IMG/VR virus record: IMGVR_UViG_3300037193_001356
Span: 1 to 44,675 of that record
Strand: one strand, 5' to 3'
Source: a virus
DNA: 44,675 nt
In this document: one piece after another, positions 6,713-30,227 of the stretch
Numbering within the stretch: position 1 is the first letter of the stretch
How the letters are laid out: every line of letters starts with the position of its first letter
The notes under the pieces: generated by a model
What the model was told of the DNA's origin: nothing
The model's input: only the letters and a program-made list of their open reading frames with translations
Databases searched by the model: none
Translations under genes and position numbers: made by a program

Positions 6713-6727
6713 ACCACTACTATAGCA
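6713..6727 (-). promoter_or_regulatory. Leaderless promoter of methyltransferase
   Basis: Reading on the minus strand: TGC-TATAGT, six bases, then ATG at 6712. The -10 box is at 6724-6719. The spacing puts the expected transcription start on the A of ATG. Confidence 0.75.
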
Positions 6728-6745
6728 GACGTAGGCAGAGAAGAA

Positions 6746-6771
6746 AACCCCCGGTCGAGTGACCGGGGGTT
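6746..6771 (-). terminator. Rho-independent terminator after peptidase inhibitor gene
   Basis: An 11-bp stem (6746-6756 with 6761-6771) with loop ACTC on the transcribed strand, followed by a TTCTTCTC pyrimidine run. It lies 10 bases after the inhibitor stop and about 20 before the methyltransferase promoter. Confidence 0.85.
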
Positions 6772-6788
6772 GGAAGTGGATCAGACGA
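6759..6788. repeat. Direct repeat, copy 2, flanking methyltransferase cassette
   Basis: Matches 6124-6153 with 29 of 30 bases. It covers the last codons of the inhibitor gene and one arm of its terminator. The unit between corresponding points of the two repeats is 635 bp and contains exactly the methyltransferase, its promoter and terminator. Confidence 0.85.
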
Positions 6789-7161
6789 ACTTGTACGACG
6801 TGTACGTCCGGTCGCCCTGCGCCGTACTCAGCTGCCCGTCGTAGGTGCCCGCGTAGAACAAGTACGAAGTACCGGAGCAGCCGGCGTCCTTGTAGAACCG
6901 GATGTTCCGGGCCGGACTGGCGGAGTTGTTGGCCACGGAGCGGGCGCGGTTGTTGATGTAACTCGGCAGGCTCCGGCACCCGGTCCAGTCGTCGCTGATC
7001 GGGTACGCGGCACCGGTGTACCCGAGGCCCTCCCAGATACTGACGAAGTGGCGCGGGGCGTTGCTGGGCATGGCGGCCTGTGCCGGCGACGCCACGAACA
7101 GCAGGCTCACCAGGGCCACCAGCGAGGCGACGAACGCGGACAGGGCGCGTTGGATGGTCAT
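6781..7161 (-). CDS. Secreted peptidase inhibitor, I36-like
   Basis: 126 aa. Residues 1-29 are a classic signal peptide (hydrophobic core AFVASLVALVSLLFVA, cleavage expected after AQA). The mature ~97 residues resemble the small beta-rich peptidase inhibitor family I36 of actinomycetes (Streptomyces metalloproteinase inhibitor type): SIWEGLGYTG, W-x-GCRSLPSYINNRARSVANN, IRFYKDAGCSG. Two cysteines (62, 95) are visible. It would be exported from the infected cell or lysogen, an unusual phage cargo. ATG at 7161 overlaps the stop of the Cys-rich gene (ATGA), so both are translated from one leaderless message ending at the 6746-6771 terminator. Function as inhibitor is by resemblance. Confidence 0.7.
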   Translation of the reverse strand: MTIQRALSAFVASLVALVSLLFVASPAQAAMPSNAPRHFVSIWEGLGYTGAAYPISDDWTGCRSLPSYINNRARSVANNSASPARNIRFYKDAGCSGTSYLFYAGTYDGQLSTAQGDRTYTSYKFV

Positions 7162-7583
7162 GCGTCGACCTTAACCAGCTCCGCCAGCTGCGGAGATCCG
7201 GGGAGGACATTGGCGATCACCTGGAGCCCCTCCAGGGTTTCTGGATCCCCATCCCAGTGGGCAGCGCAGCAGCAGCATCCAGAATCCGGCATGTACTCCC
7301 GGTACTGCTCCAAGAGCGCCTCCAGTACGGGTCGCGCGGGGACCGCCTCTGGGGCGTCATCCGGCAGAATAAACCGCTTCGCCGCATCCCGGTCGAGGCA
7401 GCATCCACACGACTTCCACACCCCCACGGTCTTCACGCCAGTGGTCGCCCTGAAGGCGCGTTCCGCGTCGCCGCACCAGTCAAGCCGTTCGGCCTGCTGC
7501 TTCACGGCATCGCGCAGGGTGACGAGATTGACCATCGCCGGGGCCTCGGTCACGGTCGATTCCTTTCGGCAGGTATCGTTCAT
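7158..7583 (-). CDS. Cysteine-rich cytoplasmic protein of unknown function
   Basis: 141 aa, not recognised. It contains two Cys clusters, WKSCGCCLDRD and SGCCCCAAHWDGD, plus WCGDAERAFRA; this suggests metal binding. No signal peptide or membrane segment is seen. The start is set by TATAGT plus six bases directly before the ATG at 7583, rather than a longer frame beginning upstream. It is coupled to the secreted inhibitor gene downstream, so the pair forms an accessory cassette between the small and large terminase genes. Confidence 0.7.
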   Translation of the reverse strand: MNDTCRKESTVTEAPAMVNLVTLRDAVKQQAERLDWCGDAERAFRATTGVKTVGVWKSCGCCLDRDAAKRFILPDDAPEAVPARPVLEALLEQYREYMPDSGCCCCAAHWDGDPETLEGLQVIANVLPGSPQLAELVKVDA

Positions 7584-7598
7584 ACAGCCACTATAGCA
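7584..7598 (-). promoter_or_regulatory. Leaderless promoter of Cys-rich/inhibitor cassette
   Basis: Minus-strand TGC-TATAGT (box 7595-7590), six bases, then ATG at 7583. Confidence 0.75.
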
Positions 7599-7602
7599 GA
7601 GG

Positions 7603-7956
7603 TTACCCAGTCTCGCCACGCCGTTCCGCGCGCCTCGCAGCGAGCTCGTCAGCCTTGCTGGCCACCGGCGCCGCCACCTCTTGCCCCAGAGCCTTGCTCA
7701 GTTCGGCCAGCAGGCCCTTGAGCGCGGTCGCCTGCTGGCGCGCCTCGGCCAGCGGGGCGTTGATGACCACCTCGGCATAGCCGGGCGGCATCCGGTCGAG
7801 CACCTGGATCCACGCCGCCGGGTCGCCCTGGAGTACGGCATCCAGGTGCTCCAGGCGCTCCACGATCAGGACCGCCTCATCGGCCAGCGCGCGCGGGATG
7901 CCGGTCAGGGTGTCCCGCTTGATCTCGCCGGCCAGGCGGTTCGCGCGCTCACCCAC
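7603..7956 (-). CDS. Terminase small subunit
   Basis: 117 aa, mostly helical. The pattern LADEAVLIVERLEHLDAVLQGDPAAWIQVLDRMPPG followed by VVINAPLAEARQQATALKGLLAELSKALG is the usual wording of actinophage small terminase subunits, which recognise the packaging site and stimulate the large subunit. GTG start at 7956 lies inside the end of the 58-aa membrane protein gene (8-base overlap). It is separated from the large terminase by the two cargo cassettes, which is unusual since the two are normally adjacent. Confidence 0.75.
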   Translation of the reverse strand: MGERANRLAGEIKRDTLTGIPRALADEAVLIVERLEHLDAVLQGDPAAWIQVLDRMPPGYAEVVINAPLAEARQQATALKGLLAELSKALGQEVAAPVASKADELAARRAERRGETG

Positions 7957-8125
7957 CGAACATCACTCCAGCGATCACCGTGCCGAGCAGAAAAGCCAGC
8001 ATGCCGGCTGCCGCGAACAGGGGCCAGAAGTCGCGCTTGTCCAGCTTGACCGGCCGGCGATCGCCCCGGGTCAGCTTCTCGTCGTAGACGAACGGCCCGA
8101 CCCTGAACCGGAAGCGCAGGCTCAC
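7949..8125 (-). CDS. Small membrane protein
   Basis: 58 aa starting at GTG 8125, which overlaps the preceding stop as GTGA. N-terminal 30 residues are strongly basic (SLRFRFRV, GDRRPVKLDKRD), followed by one transmembrane helix WPLFAAAGMLAFLLGTVIAGVMF. Likely a single-span inner-membrane protein with its basic end in the cytoplasm. Not recognised. Part of the operon that ends with the small terminase. Confidence 0.65.
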   Translation of the reverse strand: MSLRFRFRVGPFVYDEKLTRGDRRPVKLDKRDFWPLFAAAGMLAFLLGTVIAGVMFGG

Positions 8126-8304
8126 CGTTGGTCCTGTCCCGTCGGCTCCAGCGCGATGGTCAGGGTGTGCATGGTCCGGCCCGGGTACGTCGCGCCGGAC
8201 GGCCCGACTGCCCCGGTTTCGGATCGGACCCGCGTGATGGTGCCCCGGACCTCAGTCCCGTCCTGGAGCACCACCGTGACCGGGCCGCGCAGATTCAGGT
8301 TCAC
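8122..8304 (-). CDS. Small beta-rich protein of unknown function
   Basis: 60 aa from GTG 8304, overlapping the upstream stop (GTGA). The alternating sequence (PVTVVLQDGTEVRGTITRV, TMHTLTIALEP) suggests a small SH3- or Sm-like beta barrel. No cysteines, no signal. It lies in a tightly coupled run of four genes leading to the small terminase. Confidence 0.6.
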   Translation of the reverse strand: MNLNLRGPVTVVLQDGTEVRGTITRVRSETGAVGPSGATYPGRTMHTLTIALEPTGQDQR

Positions 8305-8654
8305 AGCTTCTCCCTCAGGGTCTCGACGATGGCCAGCAGGGCGTGCACCTGGGCGCCGGCCAGGGCTTGATCCACGGACAGGGTCACAGTGCCGTCGGAT
8401 CTGCGACTCTGTTGACCAATCTCGTCCATGATCTTGCGCGCTTCGCCAGCGTGCCAGCCGGCATCGCTGACCGGAACGTTCAGCGATGCGATTCGGCCTC
8501 CGGGGCCACGCGGGCGTTCCCGGAACAGGATTCCGGCGTTCTGCATGGAGCTGATCATGTCCTCAACCGTTCCTCCGTCCGCGTCGATGTCCTCCAGAGC
8601 CTCTCGCACTCTATCCATGGTCTTGACGTCATGATACGTCTCGTCGATTGGCAT
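8301..8654 (-). CDS. Hypothetical acidic protein
   Basis: 117 aa, not recognised: MPIDETYHDVKTMDRVREALEDIDADGG at the N-terminus and a helical C-terminus (SVDQALAGAQVHALLAIVETLREKL). The start at ATG 8654 is chosen because a TATAGT box lies seven bases upstream, although the frame remains open further up. First gene of the unit 8654-7603. Confidence 0.65.
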   Translation of the reverse strand: MPIDETYHDVKTMDRVREALEDIDADGGTVEDMISSMQNAGILFRERPRGPGGRIASLNVPVSDAGWHAGEARKIMDEIGQQSRRSDGTVTLSVDQALAGAQVHALLAIVETLREKL

Positions 8655-8670
8655 GCTGCCTACTATAGCA
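8655..8670 (-). promoter_or_regulatory. Leaderless promoter of small-terminase operon
   Basis: Minus-strand TGC-TATAGT (box 8667-8662) and seven bases before ATG 8654. One base longer than most members of the family. Confidence 0.65.
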
Positions 8671-9831: not shown

Positions 9832-10324
9832 CGCGATCCACCGTCTTCAGTCCAAGCACGGCGGACAGGTGACCATCCCGATCCGGGAACGGGCGGTTCG
9901 CTTTCTCCTCCCACCAGTTCACGCCGGCCATGGCGGCGAACACCAGCTGGGCGGGCGGCTTCTCCAGGTAGTCCACGGCACGGCGGAGCTGGTGCACGTC
10001 CAGCCAGCCGATGATCCGGTTGCAGGTGCGGTCACCGCCTGTGCAGAGCAGCCCCCGTACGGCCTGCCTGGTGGCGCCCAGGGCGTGGTTGTGGTCCACG
10101 CCGAGCCGGCGCCCACCACGGCCCTGCGGATCGTCCGGGTTCTTGCCCTTGGCGGTCCGGCAGATGTAACAGGCGCCGTGCTGGGCGCGATACAGGTCGC
10201 GGTAGTCCTGCGGCGTGAGTCCGTACAGGGTGAGGGCGCTGGCGTAGAACTTGCGCCACGCCACCACCGTGCGGGCATTCATGCCACGCGGTGGTGTCCA
10301 GGTCAGTCCCGTCTCGGTGGTCAT
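9821..10324 (-). CDS. Recombination endonuclease VII-like (Holliday junction resolvase)
   Basis: 167 aa. Family signature clearly present: HGACYICRTAKGK (Cys52, Cys55), LGVDHNHALGATRQAVRGLLC (Asp77-His78-Asn79-His80, Cys94) and CNRIIGWL (Cys101). The four cysteines bind a structural zinc and the DHNH set is the beta-beta-alpha metal nuclease site. In phages this enzyme resolves branched DNA before packaging. ATG 10324 overlaps the upstream stop as TGATG; the long upstream extension of the frame is a shadow. Confidence 0.9.
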   Translation of the reverse strand: MTTETGLTWTPPRGMNARTVVAWRKFYASALTLYGLTPQDYRDLYRAQHGACYICRTAKGKNPDDPQGRGGRRLGVDHNHALGATRQAVRGLLCTGGDRTCNRIIGWLDVHQLRRAVDYLEKPPAQLVFAAMAGVNWWEEKANRPFPDRDGHLSAVLGLKTVDRGGH

Positions 10325-10668
10325 CACTGCCCCTGCGGCACCCGGTAGAACGTCCGGCGCCGGATGCCCCGCGTGGTGGTGGCGGGCCGGTGGGTGCGCT
10401 CCAGGATGCCGGCTGTGGCCGCCCTGGTGAACAGGGTGACCATGGTGCTGTCCTTGAGGTTGGATACCTTCGCCGAGCGCGCCGCGAGCTCCACGCCGTC
10501 CAGGTACTCCGTGCCGGCGGCGGCCAGCTCCCTCCACGCGGCGGCCCACGCCTTTCCGAGGTCCGTGTTCGGGTCCGGGTACACCCCCGCCGAGGTGGCG
10601 GGACGTGCGCGCCGGGGCGCGTATTCGGGCTTGTTGAAGGTGGGCGGCTCGCTCGTGATTGCGTTCAT
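10324..10668 (-). CDS. Hypothetical protein with winged-helix-like C-terminus
   Basis: 114 aa. The N-terminal 35 residues are Pro/Arg rich and probably disordered. Residues ~55-110 (DGVELAARSAKVSNLKDSTMVTLF, AATAGILERTHRP, RRRTFYRVP) have the layout of a winged-helix domain with a basic wing. The start at ATG 10668 is set by TATAGT six bases upstream. It heads the operon containing endonuclease VII. A DNA-binding role is inferred. Confidence 0.65.
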   Translation of the reverse strand: MNAITSEPPTFNKPEYAPRRARPATSAGVYPDPNTDLGKAWAAAWRELAAAGTEYLDGVELAARSAKVSNLKDSTMVTLFTRAATAGILERTHRPATTTRGIRRRTFYRVPQGQ

Positions 10669-10683
10669 AACGCTACTATAGCT
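10669..10683 (-). promoter_or_regulatory. Leaderless promoter overlapping upstream stop codon
   Basis: Minus-strand TATAGT at 10680-10675, six bases, ATG 10668. The extended -10 reads AGC rather than TGC. A TTGCCG hexamer lies 17 bases further upstream. The TAG in the box is the stop codon of the 147-aa gene. Confidence 0.75.
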
Positions 10684-14274: not shown

Positions 14275-14805
14275 CTAGCTGCGTGTTGTGCGACGGGCGG
14301 ACTGGGAGACGATTTCCTGGTCCGCCCCTTGTCGTAGATGGGTCCACGCGAGTCCGGCCCGGATCTTGCGCACGGTCTCGGGGGTGACACCGTACCTCTG
14401 CGCCAAGACCTTGTTGGTCATCTCAGGGAGCGGCGCAAGCGCGAGGATCTCTCGCGCTTGCAGATCGGTCAGCTTTGAGCCACCACTGCGCATGCCTCTT
14501 GCCTGCCGTCCGCGCGCTTGACGATCGGCGATGTTCTCGGCTGCGGATCCGGACACGAGGTGATCCGGGTTGACACAGGACGGGTTGTCGCACGTGTGGC
14601 GTGCCTGTTCGCCGGGCCTTAGGTCTCGGCCCAGCTTTCGGACCAACGCCAGGCGATGCGCATAGTCGTATCGGGTAGGTCTTGTCAGTACGAACTTCCC
14701 GTATCCCTTGGCCAGGCGCGAACCAGTCCAAAGATGACAATCTCCAGATCGGTCCACTTTGGCCTCAAAGCGTTCCAGCGCTCCAGGTTCATTTATCCAG
14801 GTCAT
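14275..14805 (-). CDS. HNH homing-type endonuclease
   Basis: 176 aa. N-terminal HNH_3-type core: CHLWTGSRLAKGYGKF, YAHRLALV, ARHTCDNPSCVNPDHLVSG, then ENIADRQARGR. C-terminal helix-turn-helix (MTNKVLAQRYGVTPETVRKIRAGLAWTHL) of the kind that gives homing endonucleases DNA specificity. It is a free-standing gene with its own leaderless promoter inserted 11 bases upstream of the primase, a usual position for selfish endonucleases. Whether it also serves a phage function is unknown. Confidence 0.85.
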   Translation of the reverse strand: MTWINEPGALERFEAKVDRSGDCHLWTGSRLAKGYGKFVLTRPTRYDYAHRLALVRKLGRDLRPGEQARHTCDNPSCVNPDHLVSGSAAENIADRQARGRQARGMRSGGSKLTDLQAREILALAPLPEMTNKVLAQRYGVTPETVRKIRAGLAWTHLRQGADQEIVSQSARRTTRS

Positions 14806-14820
14806 ATGGTAATTCTAGCA
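14806..14820 (-). promoter_or_regulatory. Leaderless promoter of homing endonuclease (variant box)
   Basis: Minus-strand TGC-TAGAAT (box 14817-14812), six bases, ATG 14805. The geometry is identical to the TATAGT family although the hexamer differs. Confidence 0.6.
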
Positions 14821-14889: not shown

Positions 14890-14898
14890 ACTATAGCG
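14890..14898 (-). promoter_or_regulatory. Orphan TATAGT box facing a terminator
   Basis: CGC-TATAGT on the minus strand (14895-14890) without a start codon in register. Transcription from it would meet the 14850-14881 hairpin almost at once. It may be a chance or relic copy of the promoter family. Confidence 0.35.
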
Positions 14899-14907: not shown

Positions 14908-15717
14908 CTACTTGGGCTGTGGGAAGTTCGCGTTGGTCAGGTCGCCCTTGCGAGTGATCATCATGCGTTCCATGGGCCGCCCCTCGCGGAACGCGTTCCA
15001 CGCCCGAACGAACAGAGCCAGCTGCTCTGATCGCGTCGCGCGGTCGATGCGCAGCCTGGCGATCCTGTTACGCAGGGCCAGCACGGATGCGCGCTCCGGC
15101 AGGTTGGCGCCGCTGATGAACTGGTCATAGAACTGGTGGGTCTGCTCCTGGTCGATGCGCCAGAACAGGTAGTGCGCCACGCCGGCGACCGATCCCGTGC
15201 CCAGTCCGTTACGCCGGCAGTCCTGCGCCCGCTTCGCCGCCGCGTCGAACGCGTCCATGTCGGACAGGTATCGATCCAGAATCTCGCTGACCGTGGGTCG
15301 GATGCTGCCGCTGTGTCCGATGAAGCTGCCGGCATCCCACTGGATCACCCAACGCACGACAGCGGCGGACATCATCCGCTCGGGGGCGCCACTGATCCGC
15401 ATGGCGTCGGCCGCCGTACGGGACGCTCCGGTGTCGATGACCGCCATGGCGCCGGCCGGCACGTCGTAGGCGATGTCGAACGTGATCGGCACGTCGGCCA
15501 GGATGACCGCCTGCAGTCGGTTCTGTCCGTCGACCACGTTGCCGTTGACGTCGATTTTGATGGTCTCCCCGGTGCCCTCCACCCAGCGGCCCGACTTCAT
15601 GTCCCGGGCGTACTGGGGGATGCGGCTCTCCTTCGGCAGGCGGTTGTTCTCGGCGTTCTTGCCCAGCAGGCGCTTGGCGTCCCTGGGCGTGATGACCTCG
15701 GTCTTGTACGTTGCCAT
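14908..15717 (-). CDS. ParB/Srx-like protein
   Basis: 269 aa. The N-terminal ~110 residues hold a ParB-type nuclease-like domain: DMKSGRWVEGTGETIKIDVNGNVVDGQNRLQAV with the DGQNRL motif at 63-68. The remainder is helical (TVSEILDRYLSDMDAFDAAAKRA, RASVLALRNRIARLRIDRATRSEQLALFVRAWNAF). No ParA partner is visible, and many actinophages carry such a gene in the replication region, so a DNA-processing or regulatory role is as likely as partition. Unlike most units it has a ~30-base leader with a GAGAGAGACGGGACCC stretch before ATG 15717. Confidence 0.8.
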   Translation of the reverse strand: MATYKTEVITPRDAKRLLGKNAENNRLPKESRIPQYARDMKSGRWVEGTGETIKIDVNGNVVDGQNRLQAVILADVPITFDIAYDVPAGAMAVIDTGASRTAADAMRISGAPERMMSAAVVRWVIQWDAGSFIGHSGSIRPTVSEILDRYLSDMDAFDAAAKRAQDCRRNGLGTGSVAGVAHYLFWRIDQEQTHQFYDQFISGANLPERASVLALRNRIARLRIDRATRSEQLALFVRAWNAFREGRPMERMMITRKGDLTNANFPQPK

Positions 15718-15750
15718 GGGTCCCGTCTCTCTCTTGGTGGACTTACCTAG

Positions 15751-15759
15751 ACTATAGCA
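15751..15759 (-). promoter_or_regulatory. Promoter of ParB-like gene (with short leader)
   Basis: Minus-strand TGC-TATAGT at 15756-15751, 33 bases from the ATG; the expected transcript has a leader of about 27 bases containing a ribosome site. The box begins 6 bases after the stop of the preceding gene. Confidence 0.65.
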
Positions 15760-15762: not shown

Positions 15763-15951
15763 CTACTGACCGCGCAAGTCCTGACTGGTCAGGTGGTACC
15801 CCCTGCACAGATGACAGGGGTACACCCTGATCGGAATCTTGTCCCTATTGCTGCGACGTCGAATGGTGGCCAGGGAGAGAGACGCCTCCGTCCGGTCCCG
15901 GAATCGATGCTTGCCAGTGGGACAGGTCCGGCCGGCGCGCGGCCTGGTCAT
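15763..15951 (-). CDS. Small zinc-ribbon-like protein
   Basis: 62 aa, very basic. CPTGKHRFRDRTEASLSLATIRRRS and VYPCHLCRGYHLTSQ give Cys10-x3-His and Cys-x2-Cys-x3-His metal-binding pairs. Actinobacteria and their phages carry many small proteins ending in the C-x2-C-x-G-[YW]-H-[LV]-T phrase. ATG 15951 overlaps the helicase stop (ATGA), so the two are co-translated. Confidence 0.75.
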   Translation of the reverse strand: MTRPRAGRTCPTGKHRFRDRTEASLSLATIRRRSNRDKIPIRVYPCHLCRGYHLTSQDLRGQ

Positions 15952-17240
15952 CGCGTCACCGCCACAGTGACCGAGTCAGCCGCCCGGCTCACGGCCGTGT
16001 ACAGCCACCGCCTGGCCGCCGTGGTGGCCTCAGTGATTCCCTTGCGCTGGGCGGTCATGGCCAGCAGGTCTGGTGCCTCATTGACCACGTACACCGACCC
16101 CCACTCCGACCCCTGGGCCTTGTGCACCGTGATGGCCTGCGCGAAGGTGAATAACCCTCGGTTGCCGCGCCCACCCAGAAACGCGCTCTTCGCCCGGTCC
16201 TGCCTGGCCCGCCCCTGGAAACCGTCGGAGAACGCGAGCATGCGGCGCTCGGCCCCGGTGTCGTCGCGGACCATCATCTCCGGGCCCAGCGGGCCTTCCT
16301 GTGCCTCCAGCACGTCGAACTGCTGGCCATTGAAGACGCCCAGCGTCCGGTTGTTGGTCAGGCACATGATGCGGTCACCGGCCTCCACCACGCCCTTGAG
16401 CCGCCCCTGGGCGCCACGGATGCGGTCGATCAGGCTCCACCGGGTGGCGTTCTTCCAACACAGCACCTGATCGTGCTCCAGAGCCCTGGCCAGGCTGCGC
16501 TTCTCTACGTCGTCATCGGTCAGGCCGAGTGTGGCGCCGGTGGACGTGCGCACGCGGGTGGCGAGCTCCAGTACGGGCGATTCCAGGGCCTGGCGGTGGA
16601 TTTCCGTGAGCGCGAAGTCGGGCATGGCATCGATGTAGTACCCCTCGCCACCGACTGGCTCCAGCTGCTCCGGGTCGCCCAGCACCAGCACGGGCACCTC
16701 GAAGCGTTCGATGTCGGCGGCCAGCTTTGCGTCCACCATGGACACCTCATCGCAGATGAGCAGGTCCGCGTCGGCCAGTTCGCTGTCCGGGTTCCACTCG
16801 AACCCGATGGTCTTGGATTCCTTCTCCAGCGCGGCCACCTCCATCTCTAGTTCGGCAATGCGCGTGTCCAGCCCGTCATCCCCGGCCACGCCCTCACTGG
16901 CCAGGCCACGCCGCTCTTGTTCAGCGGCGGTCAGGGTCTCCCGTGCCGCCCGTAGCTTGGCCGCCGTCTCCGCGTTGGCGCGCGGCTTGTACACCAGGGA
17001 GTGCAGGGTTCCAGCCGGCTCGCACCCCTTCTTCCGCAACACGCTCGCGGCCTTGCCGGTGTACGCGGCATAGAACGTGTTGGTCAGACCCAGGGCGGCC
17101 GGCACCGACCGGGCCAGGGTGGTCTTGCCCGTACCGGCGGGGCCGAACAGGCGGAAGGGGTCGATCTCGGCCCCGGGACTGGAGTACCACGCGTCGATGG
17201 CATCGATGGCCTTGTCCTGCTGGGGGGTAAGCTCTGTCAT
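15948..17240 (-). CDS. RecD/Dda-like SF1 helicase
   Basis: 430 aa. Helicase motifs in order: LFGPAGTGKTTLA (Walker A, 32-43), LLICDEVSMVD (Walker B, 160-170), LVLGDPEQLEPV (motif III, 186-195), then TVHKAQGSEWGSVYVV and LYTAVSRAADSV (motifs V and VI). Residues ~88-148 between motif Ia and Walker B are a charged, probably coiled-coil insertion (ETAAKLRAARETLTAAEQE ... RIAELEMEVAALEKESK), not typical of the core fold. It likely moves 5'-3' on single-stranded DNA in phage replication or recombination. ATG 17240 is set by TATAGT seven bases upstream; the longer frame is a shadow. Confidence 0.85.
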   Translation of the reverse strand: MTELTPQQDKAIDAIDAWYSSPGAEIDPFRLFGPAGTGKTTLARSVPAALGLTNTFYAAYTGKAASVLRKKGCEPAGTLHSLVYKPRANAETAAKLRAARETLTAAEQERRGLASEGVAGDDGLDTRIAELEMEVAALEKESKTIGFEWNPDSELADADLLICDEVSMVDAKLAADIERFEVPVLVLGDPEQLEPVGGEGYYIDAMPDFALTEIHRQALESPVLELATRVRTSTGATLGLTDDDVEKRSLARALEHDQVLCWKNATRWSLIDRIRGAQGRLKGVVEAGDRIMCLTNNRTLGVFNGQQFDVLEAQEGPLGPEMMVRDDTGAERRMLAFSDGFQGRARQDRAKSAFLGGRGNRGLFTFAQAITVHKAQGSEWGSVYVVNEAPDLLAMTAQRKGITEATTAARRWLYTAVSRAADSVTVAVTR

Positions 17241-17256
17241 GTTCACCACTATAGCA
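17241..17256 (-). promoter_or_regulatory. Leaderless promoter, left side of divergent pair
   Basis: Minus-strand TGC-TATAGT at 17253-17248, seven bases, ATG 17240. Paired back to back with the 17280-17294 promoter; only 29 bases separate the two -10 boxes, so polymerases would compete. Confidence 0.75.
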
Positions 17257-17279: not shown

Positions 17280-17294
17280 TGCTATAGTCGGTGC
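17280..17294 (+). promoter_or_regulatory. Leaderless promoter, right side of divergent pair
   Basis: TGC-TATAGT (17283-17288), six bases, ATG 17295. Drives the plus-strand early block. Confidence 0.75.
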
Positions 17295-17621
17295 ATGACG
17301 AACGAAGAGAAGGCAGTCATCGAAGCGGCGCGAGCGTTCGTGAACGACGTGGACCGCAGTGGTCGCGATCGACTCGTTGCGCTCCGCAAAGCCGTGCACG
17401 TCCTGGACGAGAAGCCGGCCGCCGAGCGCACGTTCTGGGTGAACTACCAGTTCAACCTGGCCGACGGCCGCAGCGGCGAGGGGAGTGCACAGCTCACCTC
17501 CCGCACGGTCGACGCTCACGCGGTGCTGACGTGGCAGGCGACCATCCAGTCCAGCATCTCCCGCGACACCGGATCCAGCGTCAGCGTGGTCATCCGCACC
17601 TGGATGGAGCTGGAGTCCTGA
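17295..17621 (+). CDS. Hypothetical early protein
   Basis: 108 aa, not recognised. Helical N-terminus (EEKAVIEAARAFVNDVDRSGRDRLVALRKAVHVLDE) followed by beta-rich sequence (TFWVNYQFNLADGRSGEGSAQL, SVSVVIRTWMELES). First gene of the plus block, with a leaderless start. Its stop overlaps the next ATG (TGATG). Confidence 0.65.
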   Translation: MTNEEKAVIEAARAFVNDVDRSGRDRLVALRKAVHVLDEKPAAERTFWVNYQFNLADGRSGEGSAQLTSRTVDAHAVLTWQATIQSSISRDTGSSVSVVIRTWMELES

Positions 17622-20700: not shown

Positions 20701-20894
20701 CCGCCGACGCCGACGACGACCTGCTCAGTCCGGTGGAGTCATCCCCCGGCTCGGTGTTCACGGCACAGTACGCCGGCGAGTGCTCCGAGGGGGACGACAT
20801 CGAGCCTGGGGATCAGATCCGGGCCGATGGGCATGACGGCTATTCGCACGCCTCCTGTTTGCGCCTGGCGAGTCGGCCGGTGATCTGGGAATGA
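20697..20894 (+). CDS. Small acidic protein with N-terminal DDDLLSP motif
   Basis: 65 aa. The N-terminus TADADDDLLSPVESS closely resembles the start of the nuclease encoded next (TDTDDDLFSPAEP). The middle is acidic (ECSEGDDIEPGDQI) with Cys, and the end SHASCLRLASRPVIWE. Overlaps both neighbours by four bases. It may have arisen from the same N-terminal peptide as the nuclease and could compete for the same binding partner (inference). Confidence 0.65.
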   Translation: MTADADDDLLSPVESSPGSVFTAQYAGECSEGDDIEPGDQIRADGHDGYSHASCLRLASRPVIWE

Positions 20895-21808
20895 CCATCA
20901 CCGACACCGACGACGACCTGTTCTCCCCCGCCGAGCCAGACCCGGAGTACGGCGTCCGCGCCGGCCGCTACCGCTTCCCGGCCCCGCCCGGCTACACCGG
21001 GGACTCCTGGATGCGCATGACCAACCTGGCCAGCGCGTTCAGCGACCAGGAGCGCCTGCAGCTCTGGCTGGAGTGGAAGACGCTGATGGGCCTGCGGACC
21101 GGCGACGGCGTGCTCTACGACGAGTGGATGTCCATGCCCGTGGAGCGCTGGGACGCCCCCGCCCAGAAGGAGGAGGCCAACAAGCTGGCCACCCGGGCAC
21201 GGTCGGCGGCCGGCGCGGACATCGCTGGCCGGCGCGGTACGGCACGTCACGCGATGATGGACACCTACTTCTCCACCGATAAGGTGACCGGCACGCGGTC
21301 GATGCGGATGCAGTTGGAGAGCGCGGTCGAGGCGCTCGACCGGTGCGGGTTCGACGTGATCGAAACAGAGTTCAAGGTCTGGCATCCGATCGCAGGCGGC
21401 ACCATGGGGACCTCCGACGCACGCGTGATGTGTCGCAGGACGGGCCAGATGGGCATCCTGGACTGGAAGACGCAGGCGCGGTTCTGGACGTGGCAGGAGA
21501 TCGCCGGCCAGCTCTACGGCTACGACAGCGCCCCGTTCGCCTGGACGGGGCCGCACGACAGCCGGGGTCACTGGGTGGAGAACATGCCGTCCACCCTGAC
21601 CGGCCACCCGAACGGCCTGCTGCCCGGCAAACGCGTGACCCTGGTGGCGCACATGCCCCTGTCCGGGGCGCCGGTGGAGATCCACGAGGTTTCCTTGCAG
21701 TACGGCAAGCAGGTGCTGGAGTGCGCGGCGGAGAACGTGCGGCTACGGTCGATCGGCCGCAGCGTCTCGGAAAAGAGGCGACCGGCGGGGTTGCGCCCCC
21801 CGCTATAG
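20891..21808 (+). CDS. PD-(D/E)XK exonuclease (Cas4/RecB-like)
   Basis: 305 aa. Catalytic set: GTARHAMMDTY (His120), ETEFKVWHPIAGGTMGTSDARV (Glu158/160, Asp176) and GILDWKTQ (Asp191, Lys193). This order is that of Cas4/RecB-family nucleases, which resect DNA ends in phage recombination. Residues 7-13 are DDDLFSP, the shared acidic-Leu-Phe motif. The last codons CTA-TAG are supplied by the following promoter's -10 box. No CRISPR array or Cas1 is present, so a Cas4 role in adaptation is unlikely here. Confidence 0.85.
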   Translation: MTITDTDDDLFSPAEPDPEYGVRAGRYRFPAPPGYTGDSWMRMTNLASAFSDQERLQLWLEWKTLMGLRTGDGVLYDEWMSMPVERWDAPAQKEEANKLATRARSAAGADIAGRRGTARHAMMDTYFSTDKVTGTRSMRMQLESAVEALDRCGFDVIETEFKVWHPIAGGTMGTSDARVMCRRTGQMGILDWKTQARFWTWQEIAGQLYGYDSAPFAWTGPHDSRGHWVENMPSTLTGHPNGLLPGKRVTLVAHMPLSGAPVEIHEVSLQYGKQVLECAAENVRLRSIGRSVSEKRRPAGLRPPL

Positions 21809-21815
21809 TCGGCTA
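21801..21815 (+). promoter_or_regulatory. TATAGT promoter overlapping nuclease stop codon
   Basis: CGC-TATAGT with the box at 21804-21809; predicted start near 21816. The TAG at 21806-21808 ends the nuclease gene. It would transcribe the leader peptide, 51-aa gene and tRNA-like stretch. Confidence 0.6.
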
Positions 21816-22192: not shown

Positions 22193-22265
22193 TTCCCCAT
22201 AGCTCAACTGGCCAGAGCACCCGCGCGCGTCGGGAGGGATGCCGGTTCGAATCCGGTTGGGGAAG
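22193..22265 (+). tRNA. tRNA-like gene with abnormal anticodon loop
   Basis: Perfect 7-bp acceptor stem (TTCCCCA with TGGGGAA, 22193-22199 and 22258-22264), 4-bp D stem (GCTC/GAGC) with GG in its loop, and a T arm GCCGG-TTCGAAT-CCGGT. The anticodon arm is only 4 bp (CCCG/CGGG) with loop CGCGCGT; read at the standard positions the triplet is CGC (Ala), but position 33 is G instead of the invariant U. CCA is not encoded. It may be a decoy, degenerate or specialised tRNA. Confidence 0.6.
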
Positions 22266-22359
22266 CGGTTCACCCGGACAGGCTTGACCGGCCTTACGTG
22301 TTCCCGCACGTGGCGCCGGGACGAAGATTGGATGGGTGGGGCCCGGCGGGAACCGGGCA

Positions 22360-22425
22360 GCGCGGTGGTGTAAGCAGCACTCCCCATTGAGTGGGGATAG
22401 TCCGGGTGCAAGTCCCGGTCGCGCA
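22360..22425 (+). tRNA. Second tRNA-like gene, anticodon TGA by position
   Basis: Acceptor GCGCGGT/GTCGCGC with two G-T wobbles, a reduced D arm (GTG-loop-CAC lacking the GG pair), a perfect 5-bp anticodon stem TCCCC/GGGGA with loop ATTGAGT (U33 present, triplet TGA at 22388-22390), and T arm CCGGG-TGCAAGT-CCCGG with G instead of T at position 55. TGA would be a serine anticodon, but there is no long variable arm as in real tRNA-Ser. The body resembles a class I (Gly-like) tRNA, so identity is uncertain. Confidence 0.5.
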
Positions 22426-22445
22426 CTAGGTACGGAGGGTTTGCC

Positions 22446-23397: not shown

Positions 23398-23727
23398 ATG
23401 CCATTCAAGGCGGGACCGACGCACCCGGCGTGGAGCTGGGCGCCTAGAGAGACGGACGGGACCATGGCGGAGAAAGCGTTCCAGTTCCAGATCCAGCTGG
23501 ATCCGAAGCAGGTGCAGGAGCTGAAGGACTTCGTGTGGGAGCAGCTCCGCCGGGAGGCCGGACCGTCCGGCCCCCCGGTCGGCATGGAGCCGATCACCAT
23601 TCCCAGCCCCGAGGGCGAGCGCGTCCTGTTCATCGACGACGCGGCCGATGCGCACTGGCCGCTAGTCAAGAACGTGATCATCGCCAAAGAGCGCGGCTGG
23701 CGCATGGCCTGGGCCAAGAAGGCATGA
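23398..23727 (+). CDS. Hypothetical protein
   Basis: 109 aa. Two in-frame ATGs (23398 and 23464) are both preceded by the same GACGGGACC word, so the start is ambiguous; the longer form begins MPFKAGPTHPAWSWAPRE, the shorter MAEKAFQFQIQLDPKQVQEL. The common part is a helix (QELKDFVWEQLRREAG) then a beta-alpha unit (ERVLFIDDAADAHWPLVKNVIIAKERGWRMAWAKKA). Not recognised. Ends in ATGA overlap with the next gene. Confidence 0.6.
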   Translation: MPFKAGPTHPAWSWAPRETDGTMAEKAFQFQIQLDPKQVQELKDFVWEQLRREAGPSGPPVGMEPITIPSPEGERVLFIDDAADAHWPLVKNVIIAKERGWRMAWAKKA

Positions 23728-24455
23728 GCCGGATCGAGGGGCTGGCCGATCTACGCCCCGGCGACATCATGTTCGGGCCGATCGGCGGAGCCGTGGGCCT
23801 CGGAGTGGGCCTGGGTCAGCTGGCCCTGGGCGAGGCGTTCCGGGTCGGCCGGCTGAGCATCCGGCACGTGGGCATCGTCGTGGAGGCGGGACGCGCTGAG
23901 CCTGTGCGGGTGACCTACGTGCACGGCCCCGCGCGAGCCGAGACTCTGGCACCCGCGTCAGGCCCCCGCCTCGTGCAGGCCATGCCAGGCGGCGCGGAAG
24001 AGATCGAGCTGACCGAGGCCACCCACTGGACGGACCGGCACGCGTACGTGCGGCTGCCGGAGGACTGGCCCGGTCAGGCAGGGGATGCGGCGGCCATCGC
24101 CCGGCTCATGGTCCGGGAAGGCGTGGCGTACAGCTTCGCCAGCTACGCCGCGCTGGCGCTGTGGCGGTGGGGCGTGAAGACGCCCCGACTGGAGAAGTGG
24201 ATCGGCCGGCGGCGCCGGGGGGCGATTCGACTAGAGCGATGGAGTAACGGGCCCAACCATCCATCACCGGGGCAGGGGCGCGGCGGCTGCCTCCCCGTGG
24301 AGGCCATCTGCTCCGTGCTGGTGGATCAGGCATGGTCGCTGGCCGGCAAGCGCGTGGTGGATGGCACCAAGCCCCAGATCGTCACGCCGGGCATGCTCGC
24401 CGGCCAGCTCTGGCGGCAGCCAGGGGTTGTCTGGGCTGGGCCTGGCCTGCTATAG
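23724..24455 (+). CDS. Permuted papain-like (NlpC/P60-type) hydrolase
   Basis: 243 aa. Early residues LRPGDIMFGPIGGAVGLGVGLGQ and IRHVGIVVEAG give the GD-strand and the likely catalytic His; a later GGCLPVEAICSVLVDQAW gives a Cys-containing helix, so the nucleophile follows the His as in circularly permuted NlpC/P60 (YebB/YiiX-like) enzymes. These hydrolyse amide or thioester bonds in lipids, peptides or cell wall. It lacks a signal peptide. The last codons CTA-TAG overlap the next promoter's -10 box. Confidence 0.65.
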   Translation: MSRIEGLADLRPGDIMFGPIGGAVGLGVGLGQLALGEAFRVGRLSIRHVGIVVEAGRAEPVRVTYVHGPARAETLAPASGPRLVQAMPGGAEEIELTEATHWTDRHAYVRLPEDWPGQAGDAAAIARLMVREGVAYSFASYAALALWRWGVKTPRLEKWIGRRRRGAIRLERWSNGPNHPSPGQGRGGCLPVEAICSVLVDQAWSLAGKRVVDGTKPQIVTPGMLAGQLWRQPGVVWAGPGLL

Positions 24456-24462
24456 TCGGGGT
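24448..24462 (+). promoter_or_regulatory. Leaderless promoter overlapping hydrolase stop codon
   Basis: TTGTCT, 18 bases, TATAGT (24451-24456) with TGC before it, six bases, ATG 24463. TAG of the hydrolase gene lies at 24453-24455 within the box. Confidence 0.8.
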
Positions 24463-24957: not shown

Positions 24958-25110
24958 CTACTTGGCCCTGTCGACCTTGACCTGCTCACTGCCTCCGGTC
25001 TTGAAGGTCGCCTTGATCCGCTCCCGGAGCCGGTTGGCGTGCGCCTCGTTCCTGGCGGTGAAGGTCTTGACGGTCTGGCCGGCGGATCCGATGTGCTTGA
25101 CCTGGAACAT
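24958..25110 (-). CDS. Small basic protein in palindrome-flanked control region
   Basis: 50 aa: MFQVKHIGSAGQTVKTFTAR, then NEAHANRLRERIKATFKTGG, ending KVDRAK. Charge is strongly positive; two short strands and a helix. GAGGGAGACAG precedes ATG 25110. It runs against all surrounding plus-strand genes and has its own promoter and terminator. The layout, a small basic protein transcribed divergently from the DUF2637 operon across several palindromes, suggests a regulator, but no known DNA-binding motif is recognised. Confidence 0.65.
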   Translation of the reverse strand: MFQVKHIGSAGQTVKTFTARNEAHANRLRERIKATFKTGGSEQVKVDRAK

Positions 25111-25151: not shown

Positions 25152-25160
25152 GCTATAGCA
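25152..25160 (-). promoter_or_regulatory. Promoter of the 50-aa gene
   Basis: Minus-strand TGC-TATAGC (box 25157-25152), a one-base variant of the family; start expected near 25145, leaving a ~35-base leader with a ribosome site. Confidence 0.55.
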
Positions 25161-25216: not shown

Positions 25217-25231
25217 TGCTATAGTTGGGGT
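25217..25231 (+). promoter_or_regulatory. Promoter of DUF2637 gene
   Basis: TGC-TATAGT (25220-25225), six bases, then ATC instead of ATG; the transcript would have a ~21-base leader with GAGGAG before ATG 25253. Shows the same promoter used in a leadered unit. Confidence 0.75.
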
Positions 25232-25252: not shown

Positions 25253-26146
25253 ATGTCGCACCGCCGCTCCATCATCGCCGCCACCGCCACCCTAATCACC
25301 GGGGCCGTGGCCAGCCTGGCCGGCAATCTCCAGGCCATCAACCTGGACAACGCCAACCCCGGACTGGGCGAGCACGCCTCGGCCATCCTGTGGCCGGCGC
25401 TGCTGCTGCTGACCGTGGAGACGCTCATCCATACGCCGTGGTTGGCCACCTGGCGGGACAACCTGACCAAGCTGGCCATCACCGCCCTGGTGTTCGCGGT
25501 GGCCGCGTGGGTGTCCTACTGGCACCTGGCCAATGTCCTGTCCCACTACGGCTACGACGTGGCCAGCCGGTACGCCGGGCCGCTGTCCATCGACGCGGCG
25601 ATGGTGTTGGCCACGATCGCGCTGAACCGCGTTGGCCAGGCCCGCCGTGACGAGATGTCCAAGAACGTGGTCACCGCTGAGGGCGTGGACAAGTGGCACG
25701 CCGAGGAGCTGGCCAAGGGTGATGTCCTGGCCGAGCCGGCTCAGCCAGTCGAGATGTTGGACAACGTCATGCAGGGCGTGATGTCCCGCATCGATGAGTC
25801 CATCGCCGAGCGCAACGAAGAGGCGGACATGTGGGCCCGCCTGGAGCAGGAGTTCGCCGGCAGCGACGCCCCGGTCAGCCCCGCGCCGATCGTGCGCCCC
25901 GAGGTGCCGGCCATGAGGACCATGCAGGAGGCGCTCGGCGGTCCTCGGGGCGGCAAGGCGCGGCTGAGCGCCCAGGACAGCGCCGAGGCGCACACCCTGG
26001 CCGTCGAAGGGCGCCGGCACGGCCTCAGCGCCGGAGACATCTCGGAGATCCTCGCTGGCTACTACGGGGTCAGCGCGCGGACCATCCGGCGGCAGTCCTG
26101 GTGGGTGCCGACCATGGCCGGCAAGCTTGACTCACAAGCTGGCTGA
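25253..26146 (+). CDS. DUF2637 (Spd-like) membrane protein with C-terminal HTH
   Basis: 297 aa. Residues ~5-125 contain about four membrane segments (IIAATATLITGAVASLAG, ILWPALLLLTVETLI, LAITALVFAVAAWVSYWHL, GPLSIDAAMVLATIAL), the DUF2637 pattern of actinomycete conjugative plasmids, where it sits with spread (Spd) and TraB genes. The rest is cytoplasmic and acidic, ending in a helix-turn-helix (HGLSAGDISEILAGYYGVSARTIRRQSWW, ~255-283). A membrane-tethered DNA-binding protein is plausible. Strong GAGGAG site before ATG. The gene ends at a 30-base palindrome terminator. Confidence 0.85.
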   Translation: MSHRRSIIAATATLITGAVASLAGNLQAINLDNANPGLGEHASAILWPALLLLTVETLIHTPWLATWRDNLTKLAITALVFAVAAWVSYWHLANVLSHYGYDVASRYAGPLSIDAAMVLATIALNRVGQARRDEMSKNVVTAEGVDKWHAEELAKGDVLAEPAQPVEMLDNVMQGVMSRIDESIAERNEEADMWARLEQEFAGSDAPVSPAPIVRPEVPAMRTMQEALGGPRGGKARLSAQDSAEAHTLAVEGRRHGLSAGDISEILAGYYGVSARTIRRQSWWVPTMAGKLDSQAG

Positions 26147-26157
26147 GCTGGGGATTT

Positions 26158-26187
26158 AGAGGCCCGAGACTTAAGTCTCGGGCCTCT
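26158..26187 (+). terminator. 30-base perfect palindrome terminator
   Basis: 15-bp fully symmetric palindrome centred on TTAA, 12 bases after the DUF2637 stop and 20 before the next -10 box. It can fold on either strand. Confidence 0.75.
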
Positions 26188-26207
26188 TGCGTGCCCGGCC
26201 CTACGTC

Positions 26208-26222
26208 TGCTATAATAGTGGT
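26208..26222 (+). promoter_or_regulatory. Leaderless promoter with consensus TATAAT
   Basis: TTGCGT, 18 bases, TATAAT (26211-26216) with TGC before, six bases, ATG 26223. Probably the strongest member of the family. Confidence 0.8.
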
Positions 26223-26399
26223 ATGACGAAGAACAAGGACCAGGACAAGGGCTACACCACGGAGCGCGTGCTCAAGGCCGCGATCAAGGCCCAGCACGAC
26301 CAGGCCGAGCGGATCAAGGCCGGCGGCGCGCACGACGTGGTCGCCAACCTCTCCAGCCGGGACCAGCGCACCGTGATGGAGGTGATCAACGAGCGCTAG
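26223..26399 (+). CDS. Small basic hypothetical protein
   Basis: 58 aa: MTKNKDQDKGYTTERVLKAA, IKAQHDQAERIKAGGAHDVV, ANLSSRDQRTVMEVINER. Mostly helical and charged; no motif. A monocistronic leaderless gene whose end abuts the convergent translocase gene (4-base overlap at 26396-26399). Confidence 0.65.
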   Translation: MTKNKDQDKGYTTERVLKAAIKAQHDQAERIKAGGAHDVVANLSSRDQRTVMEVINER

Positions 26400-28260: not shown

Positions 28261-28268
28261 ATGTCCAC
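28257..28268 (+). promoter_or_regulatory. Putative leaderless promoter of 49-aa gene
   Basis: TACGAT (28257-28262), six bases, GTG 28269. Same spacing as the TATAGT family, divergent from the translocase. Confidence 0.45.
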
Positions 28269-28418: not shown

Positions 28419-28421
28419 CCC

Positions 28422-28436
28422 TGCTATAGTTGGGGT
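28422..28436 (+). promoter_or_regulatory. Leaderless promoter of 45-aa gene
   Basis: TTGCGC, 18 bases, TATAGT (28425-28430) with TGC before, six bases TGGGGT, ATG 28437. Confidence 0.8.
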
Positions 28437-28574
28437 ATGGAGAAGAAGGTTATCCACCACTGGGAAGAGATCAACACCGGACAATGGGCCGGATGGTCCA
28501 AGTGTCGGTCCTGCTTTTTGGCGCATAAGCGCTCAACGGCAGAGATTCGGGCCGAGATGTTGGCAAGGGCCTGA
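28437..28574 (+). CDS. Small protein with Cys-x2-Cys knuckle
   Basis: 45 aa: EKKVIHHWEEINTGQWAGWS, KCRSCFLAHKRSTAEIRAEM, LARA. His-His pair, Cys-x2-Cys and a further His suggest zinc binding. Start fixed by promoter spacing. Confidence 0.65.
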   Translation: MEKKVIHHWEEINTGQWAGWSKCRSCFLAHKRSTAEIRAEMLARA

Positions 28575-28579
28575 ACGTC

Positions 28580-28594
28580 TGCTATAGTTGGGCT
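28580..28594 (+). promoter_or_regulatory. Promoter of the transfer-like operon (28.6-30.2 kb)
   Basis: TTGGCA, 17 bases, TATAGT (28583-28588) with TGC before; six bases later ATC, so start near 28595 and a ~65-base leader before ATG 28660. Confidence 0.75.
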
Positions 28595-28659
28595 ATCCCG
28601 GACGGGGGTCCTGTCGAACGGAGACGGGGCCCCTGACCGGCTAAGACGGGAGACGGGAC

Positions 28660-28833
28660 ATGAGGATCATCAGGACCATCCTGTTCCTGGCCGGCGTACT
28701 GACCATGGCCGGCGGCGTTGACCGGTACGCGCTGGGGGCAGTCATCATGGGGTCGTTGTCCACGACGCTCGGGCTCAATCTGGTGATCAACGCGGCCATC
28801 GATAAGGCGAGGAAACAGCCACATGTCAGGTAG
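28660..28833 (+). CDS. Small membrane protein
   Basis: 57 aa: two hydrophobic stretches, IIRTILFLAGVLTMAGGV and ALGAVIMGSLSTTLGLNLVI, with a short charged tail. GGGAGACGGGAC precedes ATG 28660. Its stop overlaps the next gene. First gene of a five-gene coupled operon. Confidence 0.7.
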   Translation: MRIIRTILFLAGVLTMAGGVDRYALGAVIMGSLSTTLGLNLVINAAIDKARKQPHVR

Positions 28834-29023
28834 CTTCCTGGACGCCCTCAAGTCCGGTGAGATCGGCGGATACCAGAACCTGATCAATGAGGTCTACGAC
28901 ACCGCCTGCGCCGAGAACGAGCTCCGGGACAAGATCGCCGACATCCTCCGTCAGCACCGCGTCAACCTCAGGGGCAAGATCACCCAGCTCGTGGAGCTGA
29001 TCGAGCAGACGAAAGGATCATGA
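28823..29023 (+). CDS. Small helical hypothetical protein
   Basis: 66 aa: SFLDALKSGEIGGYQNLINE, VYDTACAENELRDKIADILR, then RVNLRGKITQLVELIEQTKGS. Two long amphipathic helices, likely a dimeric coiled coil. Overlaps the preceding and following genes, so expression is coupled. Confidence 0.6.
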   Translation: MSGSFLDALKSGEIGGYQNLINEVYDTACAENELRDKIADILRQHRVNLRGKITQLVELIEQTKGS

Positions 29024-29271
29024 TGGCCATAACGATGTTCAACCCGCCCACCTTCCTGGACGGTCAGAAGTTCGAGACCGAGACCCGTGGCTACGCCGAG
29101 GGCGTCATCACGCTGAAGGCGACTCATGACCAGATGCTGTGGGCATGCACTCGCCTCGGCCAGTACGTGGACGGCCGGCGGGGCGACCGCACGTTCCGCG
29201 CGTACGTGTACGTGGTCAGCGCCACAGCCGAGGAGGGCAACACCATCACCGTGAAGGTGGAGCCGGCGTGA
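29020..29271 (+). CDS. Small beta-rich hypothetical protein
   Basis: 83 aa: MFNPPTFLDGQKFETETRGY, AEGVITLKATHDQMLWACTR, RTFRAYVYVVSATAEEGNTI, TVKVEPA. Compact alpha/beta composition. ATGA overlap at the start, GTGA overlap at the end with the GIY-YIG gene. Unknown function. Confidence 0.6.
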   Translation: MMAITMFNPPTFLDGQKFETETRGYAEGVITLKATHDQMLWACTRLGQYVDGRRGDRTFRAYVYVVSATAEEGNTITVKVEPA

Positions 29272-29738
29272 GGTTCATCGTCCGGGCCAAGCGGCGGCGC
29301 GCGGGGATCTACCTCGCGCGCACGCGCCGCCACCGGGGCCGGCGGCGCGAGAACGGCTACGTGGGCCGGTCCAACAACGTGCCCATTCGGATCAAACAGC
29401 ACCTTGGTATGGACTCTCGGCACGTTGCTAAGCCCTGGGCCGACCTAGACCCCCGATGGTTCGTTCTGCGCCTGCCGTGGTGGCTGTCCTGGAAGTGGGT
29501 GCAGGTGCCCCTGGAAGCCCTGGGCATCTGGCTGCTCCTGCCCCGGTACAACCACCAGCTCAACCAGGGCAACCCTCGCCGCGTGCCGCTGTCCGTGCAG
29601 GCCAGGAAGCGCGCGGCCAGGGACGGTGTGCGCATCACCATGCGCCGGCACTTCCCGCGCCCGTCCGGCTATCGGATCACGGGCGTCCTGTTCATCCTGT
29701 CTGCCGCCGCGATGACGATCTGGAGCTTTGTCCGATGA
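29268..29738 (+). CDS. GIY-YIG nuclease-like protein with C-terminal membrane anchor
   Basis: 156 aa from GTG 29268. AGIYLARTRR (GIY at 13-15), NGYVGRSNNVPIRIKQHLG (YVG at 31-33, Arg41, His45), VPLEALGIWLLLPRYNHQLN (Glu83, Asn95, Asn99) and GNPRRVPLS give the catalytic set of a GIY-YIG nuclease. The last ~22 residues (YRITGVLFILSAAAMTIWSFV) form a membrane helix. A membrane-tethered GIY-YIG enzyme inside a transfer-like operon could nick or cut DNA at the translocation pore (inference). Basic throughout, fitting DNA contact. Confidence 0.75.
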   Translation: MRFIVRAKRRRAGIYLARTRRHRGRRRENGYVGRSNNVPIRIKQHLGMDSRHVAKPWADLDPRWFVLRLPWWLSWKWVQVPLEALGIWLLLPRYNHQLNQGNPRRVPLSVQARKRAARDGVRITMRRHFPRPSGYRITGVLFILSAAAMTIWSFVR

Positions 29739-30208
29739 CCACCGACCTGTCCCGCAAGCGCCCCGCCGAGGTCCTGCGCGCCGCGCCCATCCCACCGTCC
29801 CGGGTCCGCCGCGTCACCGACCTGACCGCGCCCTCCATGGCCATGCTGCGCGCGGAGCTCAAGCGCCGCACGCTGTCCGGTGAGGTGGAGAAGGCGTGGA
29901 ACATGCGGATGATCACCGAGGGTCGGATGGCGGGCCGGTTCGCCGTCCGCGTGGTGCTCGTCCCGCCGCGTCCGCACCGCGCCCGCGAAGGCGTCCGCCG
30001 CGCCCTGCTGGCGGTCGGGGCCGCCCTGGGCGGCCTGGCGTCCCTTGTCGCCTCCCTGGCCTGGCTGCTGACCGCGCTGACCGGCCCAGCGCTGCTGGCC
30101 TTCCTGGGTACGGTGCTGATCGTGTTCGGGGCTCTGGTATGGGCCAAGTACGGCCGGCGGCGCACGGAGGTCAGCGTTACCACGACGACCACTGTGCACG
30201 TCCGCTAA
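29735..30208 (+). CDS. Two-span membrane protein, Spd-like position
   Basis: 157 aa. The basic cytoplasmic N-terminal ~85 residues (SRKRPAEVLRAAPIPPSRVRR, MLRAELKRRTLSGEVEKAW) precede two membrane helices (ALLAVGAALGGLASLVASLAW, LLAFLGTVLIVFGALVWAKY) and a short tail VSVTTTTTVHVR. ATG 29735 overlaps the GIY-YIG stop. Small two-span proteins encoded next to TraB act in plasmid spreading in Streptomyces (established for Spd proteins); equivalence is inferred. Confidence 0.65.
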   Translation: MTTDLSRKRPAEVLRAAPIPPSRVRRVTDLTAPSMAMLRAELKRRTLSGEVEKAWNMRMITEGRMAGRFAVRVVLVPPRPHRAREGVRRALLAVGAALGGLASLVASLAWLLTALTGPALLAFLGTVLIVFGALVWAKYGRRRTEVSVTTTTTVHVR

Positions 30209-30212
30209 CGTC

Positions 30213-30227
30213 TGCTATAGTTGAGCT
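30213..30227 (+). promoter_or_regulatory. Leaderless promoter of 123-aa gene
   Basis: TGTGCA, 17 bases, TATAGT (30216-30221) with TGC before, six bases TGAGCT, ATG 30228. Confidence 0.8.

Follow-up and report, generated by a model that had tools for sequence, protein, structure and literature searches.

How does a gene begin when a promoter box stands directly before its start codon? The question is raised by IMG/VR record IMGVR_UViG_3300037193_001356, a complete virus record of 44,675 bases that is called the window here over its full length, and that belongs to an uncultured tailed phage with genes for, among others, a portal, a large terminase, helicases, an exonuclease, a primase-like protein and a tail protein. 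An extended -10 box, TGCTATAGT, is repeated in this genome six or seven nucleotides (N6 or N7) 5' of ATG codons, and a first-pass annotation had read these boxes as a genome-wide family of leaderless promoters. Leaderless initiation is very probably the best reading of the set, because box copies that stand away from an ATG nevertheless mostly keep an A at the same position, because most of these copies are followed by a Shine-Dalgarno (SD) sequence, because a TTG-type -35 element is present, and because the arrangement is conserved at orthologous genes.

The box and its distance from the start codon

With at most one mismatch, TGCTATAGT occurs 16 times in the window, where 1.4 copies are expected, and none of 100 shuffles reached this number. 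Ten of the 16 copies stand 6 or 7 nt 5' of ATG, with N6 at the starts 6712, 7583, 10668, 17295, 24463, 26223, 28437 and 30228, and N7 at 8654 and 17240, so that a reading of the contexts bears out all ten starts listed in the first-pass annotation. The box at 10668 reads AGCTATAGT, the one at 26223 contains TATAAT, and the variant that had been reported at 14805 is likewise found, as TGCTAGAAT-N6-ATG. The probability of at least 8 of 16 boxes at N6 is 9e-12, and that of at least 10 of 16 at N6 or N7 is 9e-13. The start codon at the leaderless boxes of the window is always ATG and never GTG. Two further sites fall away as variants, since 28216 (TAGGTT-N6-ATG) and 28269 (TACGAT-N6-GTG, opening a frame of 49 codons) have just TANNNT and the distance in common with the box, which is a weak likeness between different boxes. 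Nor is the leaderless set genome-wide: it is restricted to the non-structural region from 6.7-30.2 kb, the early/replication half, and the structural module has none.

For the proposed scan with a weight matrix, the matrix was trained on the promoters of relatives alone and the start codon was left out. It recovers all ten TGCTATAGT-type leaderless starts of the window and finds 21 window matches above 12 bits (0.4 expected), a total in which some dyads are counted on their reverse strand as well. None of these matches lies within called genes and no copy of the box lies inside a gene of the window, so that the equal motif density inside genes that had been named as a refuting result is not what is found. 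At 21801 and at 24448 the box runs into the stop codon of the preceding gene, and in 12 of 142 boxes of the clade the TAG within the -10 element is the stop of the upstream gene. Directly 5' of some boxes there are long hairpins (6680-6760 and 26150-26210 in the window, and also in the related genome G004), stems of at least 10 being found upstream of 14% of the boxes vs 1% of random stretches, and hairpin, box and gene appear to form terminator-promoter-gene cassettes.

Probable transcription start and conservation in relatives

The probable position of the transcription start can be read from boxes that lack an ATG at N6 or N7. Among 43 such boxes, 37 have an A at the same position and 35 have a T just before it, while the bases at +2 and +3 are unconstrained and G at +3 is not in excess. 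An SD and a start codon follow within 85 nt in 41 of 49 leadered boxes, and it was thus rightly annotated that the same box is also used with normal leaders, as both kinds of site share the apparent transcription start. The annotated -35 at 17-18 bases is also found, since 56 of 138 sites have a TTG at 16-19 bp from the -10 element on its upstream side, compared with 2 of 138 in a control stretch, with TTGCG as the commonest form; the remaining sites rely on the extended -10. With TANNNT, TGN and this TTG the sites have the features of sigma70/sigmaA extended -10 promoters, and with no SD and a -10 placed about 12 bp 5' of the start codon they have those of bacterial leaderless genes. Frames of at least 40 codons are opened by 86 of the 89 leaderless ATGs, vs 56% of all ATGs. 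We infer from these sequence features that the phage uses host sigma70/sigmaA-type promoters, consisting of a TTG -35 (often TTGCGN), a 17-18 bp spacer and the extended -10 TGCTATAGT, whose spacing would put the transcription start on the A of ATG. As the start would be set there, the mRNAs of about ten genes of the early/replication region would be leaderless and be translated from a 5'-terminal AUG, and the remaining promoter copies would start at a non-ATG A and give a short leader that carries an SD. No RNA polymerase or sigma factor was found among the window proteins searched.

The same box is present in about 20 related uncultured phages, whose shared proteins have about 50% identity. 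A pattern search for promoter plus start gave 49 stretches, of which 12 records were fetched together with G001, which was found by its terminase, and all 13 and the window have genes in common, most of them at about 40-60% identity. In the census of exact boxes, which covered 13 genomes with the window included and one near duplicate dropped, TGCTATA(A/G)T occurs 94 times, with ATG at N6 in 57 cases and at N7 in 7, only 0-5 at each other offset, and no GTG at N6 or N7; a single one of the 94 is in the interior of a called gene. Counting the window, 9 of 12 clade members have a box at N6 or N7 before the Dda-like helicase that starts at 17240 in the window, the helicase proteins of the relatives align with it from residue 1, and the divergent leaderless pair beside it recurs in several genomes. 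For the small winged-helix gene (window 10668), CTATAGT, CATAGT or CATACT stands at N6-ATG in nearly all orthologs, the exception in G001 probably being a miscalled start. In orthogroup 10676, the protein model of which gave just low-probability matches, the box is TGGTAGGAT in G002 and TGGTATTCT in G008, and the distance to ATG is unchanged, and two helicases found independently of the motif have TGCTATTGT (L249) and TGCTATTCT (L256), both with N6-ATG. That the distance is kept while the box changes fits the requirement of a leaderless start. The helicase promoter of G030 (L070; 37566, 37598) has ATC at +1, AAGGAG and a later ATG, and the protein is N-terminally extended, which can be regarded as a natural switch from leaderless to leadered at an orthologous promoter. 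Since distant relatives keep the arrangement at the same genes, it appears to be a maintained strategy of gene control and not a coincidence.

The dyad and the rival explanations

The set of extended -10 promoters at orthologous genes thus stands, but the first-pass annotation missed a dyad that a plain sigma reading does not explain. The consensus around the box is an imperfect 22-bp dyad, tacgtcTGCTATAGTagagGTA, which has the box at its centre and is symmetric about CTATAG except for a G/T pair at -14/-7. Complementarity of the arms (-21 to -15 vs -6 to +1) reaches 0.50 at the CTATAG register, as against 0.19-0.34 when the register is shifted (eleven shifts), for the inner pairs alone it is 0.47 vs 0.21-0.31, and it is at least 0.35 in every genome. 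The weight matrix scores the reverse strand of about 9 window sites, partly because CTATAG itself is palindromic. L249 and L256 retain the arms GTCT/AGAC with a centre that is no longer palindromic. The TG, the -10, the initiator and the G at -5 can be put down to sigma contacts, whereas the conserved spacer TACGTC cannot. Dyad symmetry at the promoters of one genome is a mark of phage operator regulons, and the boxes have it, albeit imperfectly.

Because the box forms the centre of the dyad, an operator may be superimposed on the -10 element and be bound by a dimeric phage regulator that controls the set together, a proposal to which we give slightly less than even chances. The leading candidate for such a regulator is the predicted winged-helix protein encoded at 10324-10668, whose AlphaFold2 model has a pLDDT of about 90 in the domain and gives PadR/MarR-like matches (E ~0.03, prob 0.98-0.99); its viral matches include replication proteins, which is why its role as regulator stays a candidacy. 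It is rather doubtful, but conceivable, that all this amounts to one composite element, present about ten times per genome, in which the 22-bp operator, the -10, the transcription start and the start codon lie on top of one another, and that the product of the leaderless winged-helix gene regulates the early set. Transcription and 5'-terminal translation initiation would then be switched together.

The element might also be first of all a repressor operator, with the -10 being incidental, the ATG distance following from operator placement, and leaderless expression being secondary. The register specificity of the dyad in every genome would agree with this, as would the fact that TATAGT and the C at -13 are almost invariant, more so than the TANNNT that is typical of leaderless promoters in actinobacteria (PMC3160421), and that the winged-helix gene itself carries the box. 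This explanation is nevertheless improbable, as the TTG -35 at 17-18 bp, the TG at -15/-14 and the leadered versions with their SD are those of real promoters, and as N6-ATG is retained in orthologs despite other -10 boxes; an operator is moreover compatible with leaderless use and does not exclude it. The boxes could also be ordinary leadered promoters, with transcription beginning at least 10 nt upstream or initiation taking place downstream and the ATG at N6 being a by-product of the initiator (TATG). An SD and an ATG do follow shortly downstream at a few sites (G030 34862, 23567), and TA at -1/+1 is common to the leadered class, but the long frames behind 86 of 89 ATGs, the helicase N-termini that align at the box-spaced ATG in most relatives, and the lack of an excess of G at +3 in leadered sites make this very unlikely. 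Hardly any weight can be given to a translation element like the start-associated sequence (SAS) of Cluster K mycobacteriophages, which is likewise a short conserved motif at start codons scattered over one genome. The SAS is a 13-bp repeat that extends the ribosome-binding site at 3-9 bp from the start (PMC11373665), whereas the window motif does not have this form: it contains no SD-like sequence, has a -35/-10 layout, and is also found 16-65 nt or more from starts that have a separate SD.

Some points weigh against leaderless initiation itself. The pattern by which most relatives were found includes the ATG, and for this reason relatives found by their proteins only were also examined. In G001, 5 of 8 boxes are leaderless. 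A sample taken from a portal alignment and not chosen by motif added 30 records, 6 of which have boxes, with ATG at N6/N7 after 14 of 21 of them; all six have at least 61% portal identity. No box was found in the portal records below 60% identity, or in some short fragments and one 92-kb record at 60-65%, and four full-length structural relatives have neither a box nor an excess of TANNNT-N6-ATG. These four have an early module that differs from that of the window and thus show no gain or loss within one module. When genes were called without a bonus for the box, the N6 peak appeared in every clade member but in none of the four structural relatives. Also on the unfavourable side are the short frames at G030 23567 (7 codons) and G027 28463 (19 codons), which point to downstream starts, and G030 34862, which has AAGGAG and an ATG 21 nt in. 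The dyad arm could partly explain the preference for T/A at -1/+1 in leadered sites. Finally, covariation between the arms is seen between genomes and is gone after shuffling within genomes; it may reflect shared ancestry, and the case for the dyad is therefore that of register specificity only.

Genes, host and known systems

On the minus strand, the box at 6719..6727 (TGCTATAGT, N6, ATG 6712) is preceded by a terminator-like hairpin with an 11-bp stem and belongs to a leaderless open reading frame (ORF) of 188 aa (6146..6712, -) that is DNA-methyltransferase-like (MTKLAIADPPYPP) with weak matches (phrog_67, E 5e-4; N6_N4_Mtase, E 0.008, below its cut-off). This start and that at 28437 were overlooked by a simple gene caller. 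On the same strand there are TGCTATAGT boxes at 7590..7598 (N6, ATG 7583, ORF 7158-7583, 141 aa) and 8662..8670 (N7, ATG 8654, ORF 8301-8654, 117 aa). The transcription unit that starts at the leaderless gene 7583 also contains a gene for a peptidase inhibitor I36 domain protein (6781-7161, -; Pfam E 3e-9), which is unusual in a phage. Still on this strand are the AGCTATAGT box at 10675..10683 (N6, ATG 10668) of the candidate regulator (114 aa, 10324..10668, -), the variant TGCTAGAAT at 14812..14820 (N6, ATG 14805) of an HNH endonuclease ORF (14275-14805), and a leadered TGCTATAGT at 15751..15759, for which transcription would start at 15744, ahead of an SD and ATG 15717 (ORF 14908-15717). The divergent pair consists of the box at 17248..17256 (-, TGCTATAGT, N7, ATG 17240), which serves the 430-aa Dda-like helicase (15948..17240, -; phrog_325, E 1e-73), and the box at 17280..17288 (+, TGCTATAGT, N6) with ATG 17295 (ORF 17295-17621, 108 aa).

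The other leaderless boxes on the plus strand are TGCTATAGT at 24448..24456 (N6, ATG 24463, 60 aa), whose TAG terminates ORF 23724-24455, TGCTATAAT at 26208..26216 (N6, ATG 26223, 58 aa), with a preceding hairpin of 13-bp stem, and TGCTATAGT at 28422..28430 (N6, ATG 28437, 45 aa) and at 30213..30221 (N6, ATG 30228, ORF 30228-30599, 123 aa), the G027 ortholog of the last ORF being likewise leaderless. Leadered boxes on this strand are found at 21801..21809 (CGCTATAGT), where the TAG terminates ORF 20891-21808, at 25217..25225 (+1 ATC, GAGGAGG, ATG 25253, ORF 25253-26146) and at 28580..28588 (+1 ATC, SD, ATG 28660). The first of these lies upstream of a stretch with genes for tRNA-Ala(CGC) and tRNA-Ser(TGA) at 22193-22426. 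Further leadered box-like sites are present on the minus strand at 25152..25160 (TGCTATAGC, before ORF 24958-25110) and at 14890 (CGCTATAGT).

The phage most likely infects soil actinobacteria. Cellular genomes with portal relatives are nearly all Actinobacteria, the tail protein has distant matches to Streptomyces phages, and the large terminase shares no more than about 34% identity with those of named actinophages, and because these matches point to actinobacteria and actinophages, Actinobacteria is inferred as the host phylum. The portal relatives inside actinobacterial genomes and one Gemmatimonadaceae bin are just 40-47% identical, and the box is absent from every one of these stretches; a phage collection searched by megablast with the first 20 kb of the window gave no match.

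If the leaderless reading is true, this phage group commits much of its early expression to 5'-terminal AUG initiation and offers a small natural system in which leaderless translation, and the sharing of this pathway between cell and phage, can be tested, and in the annotation of such genomes the start is located by the -10 box and not by an SD. Translation from a 5'-terminal AUG is common in Actinobacteria. The leaderless genes there have TANNNT at a distance of about 12 bp from the start codon (Zheng 2011 PMC3160421; Shell 2015 PMC4633059), and in the same way the -10 hexamer of the window ends 6-7 nt before a start codon without SD, and the same host machinery is probably used. Unlike these genes with their loose TANNNT, the window has one near-invariant extended -10 that is contained in a dyad, and it uses ATG alone, whereas both ATG and GTG work in mycobacterial leaderless genes.

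Among phages, the annotation had set a leaderless set apart from the repeats of Cluster K, and the box does differ from the SAS, but leaderless promoters are not unique to the window. In mycobacteriophages of Cluster O, three leaderless SigA promoters have been predicted, PL1, PR2 and PL2 (PMC4351075), which, like those of the window, are SigA-like, would begin transcription at the start codon's first base and include a divergent pair; the window has about ten with one common box, however, and the 17-bp palindrome of Cluster O is a separate repeat and not a -10, while the window dyad contains the -10. One leaderless promoter has been predicted in Adephagia, and in Cluster K, where dispersed short repeats also stand at gene starts, the genes with SAS are leadered, the extended form (ESAS) having a SigA-like promoter and an inverted repeat (PMC11373665). 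The operator OR of phage BPs lies between -35 and -10, and the stoperators of Cluster A are asymmetric and dispersed (PMC9283540, PMC4557955); the putative operator of the window would resemble them as a phage-wide DNA site read by one repressor, but, unlike stoperators, would be centred on the -10.

A survey of 17 isolated actinophages gave a single instance of TGNTANANT-N6-ATG, the form with an extended -10. The looser TANNNT-N6/7-ATG exceeds background by 16 in phiAsp2, 11 in TPA2, 6 in ReqiPine5 and also 6 in the AT-richer CMP1 (background 5.0), by 4-5 in Min1 and phiC31 and by 2-3 in R4, VWB and GTE2, and is around or under zero in the remaining ones. The Actinoplanes phage phiAsp2 (L191-L193) has about 17 such starts (e.g. 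35055, 40302, 56901), several of which share TTGACA and TAAGGT. Its record annotates ribosome-binding sites near these starts, which may be misread -10 boxes. The Tsukamurella phage TPA2 (L234-L236) has 13, with varied boxes of the TACNCT type, and apparently holds a leaderless set without a common box. This suggests that several isolated actinophages hold leaderless sets with different promoters, which in the literature searched have not been described as leaderless for phiAsp2 and TPA2, and such isolates allow direct testing. Neither of the two has the CTATAG dyad of the window. As the Cluster O and Adephagia predictions show, leaderless phage promoters as such are known, and what is new is a large conserved set that is built on one near-invariant dyad-containing box.

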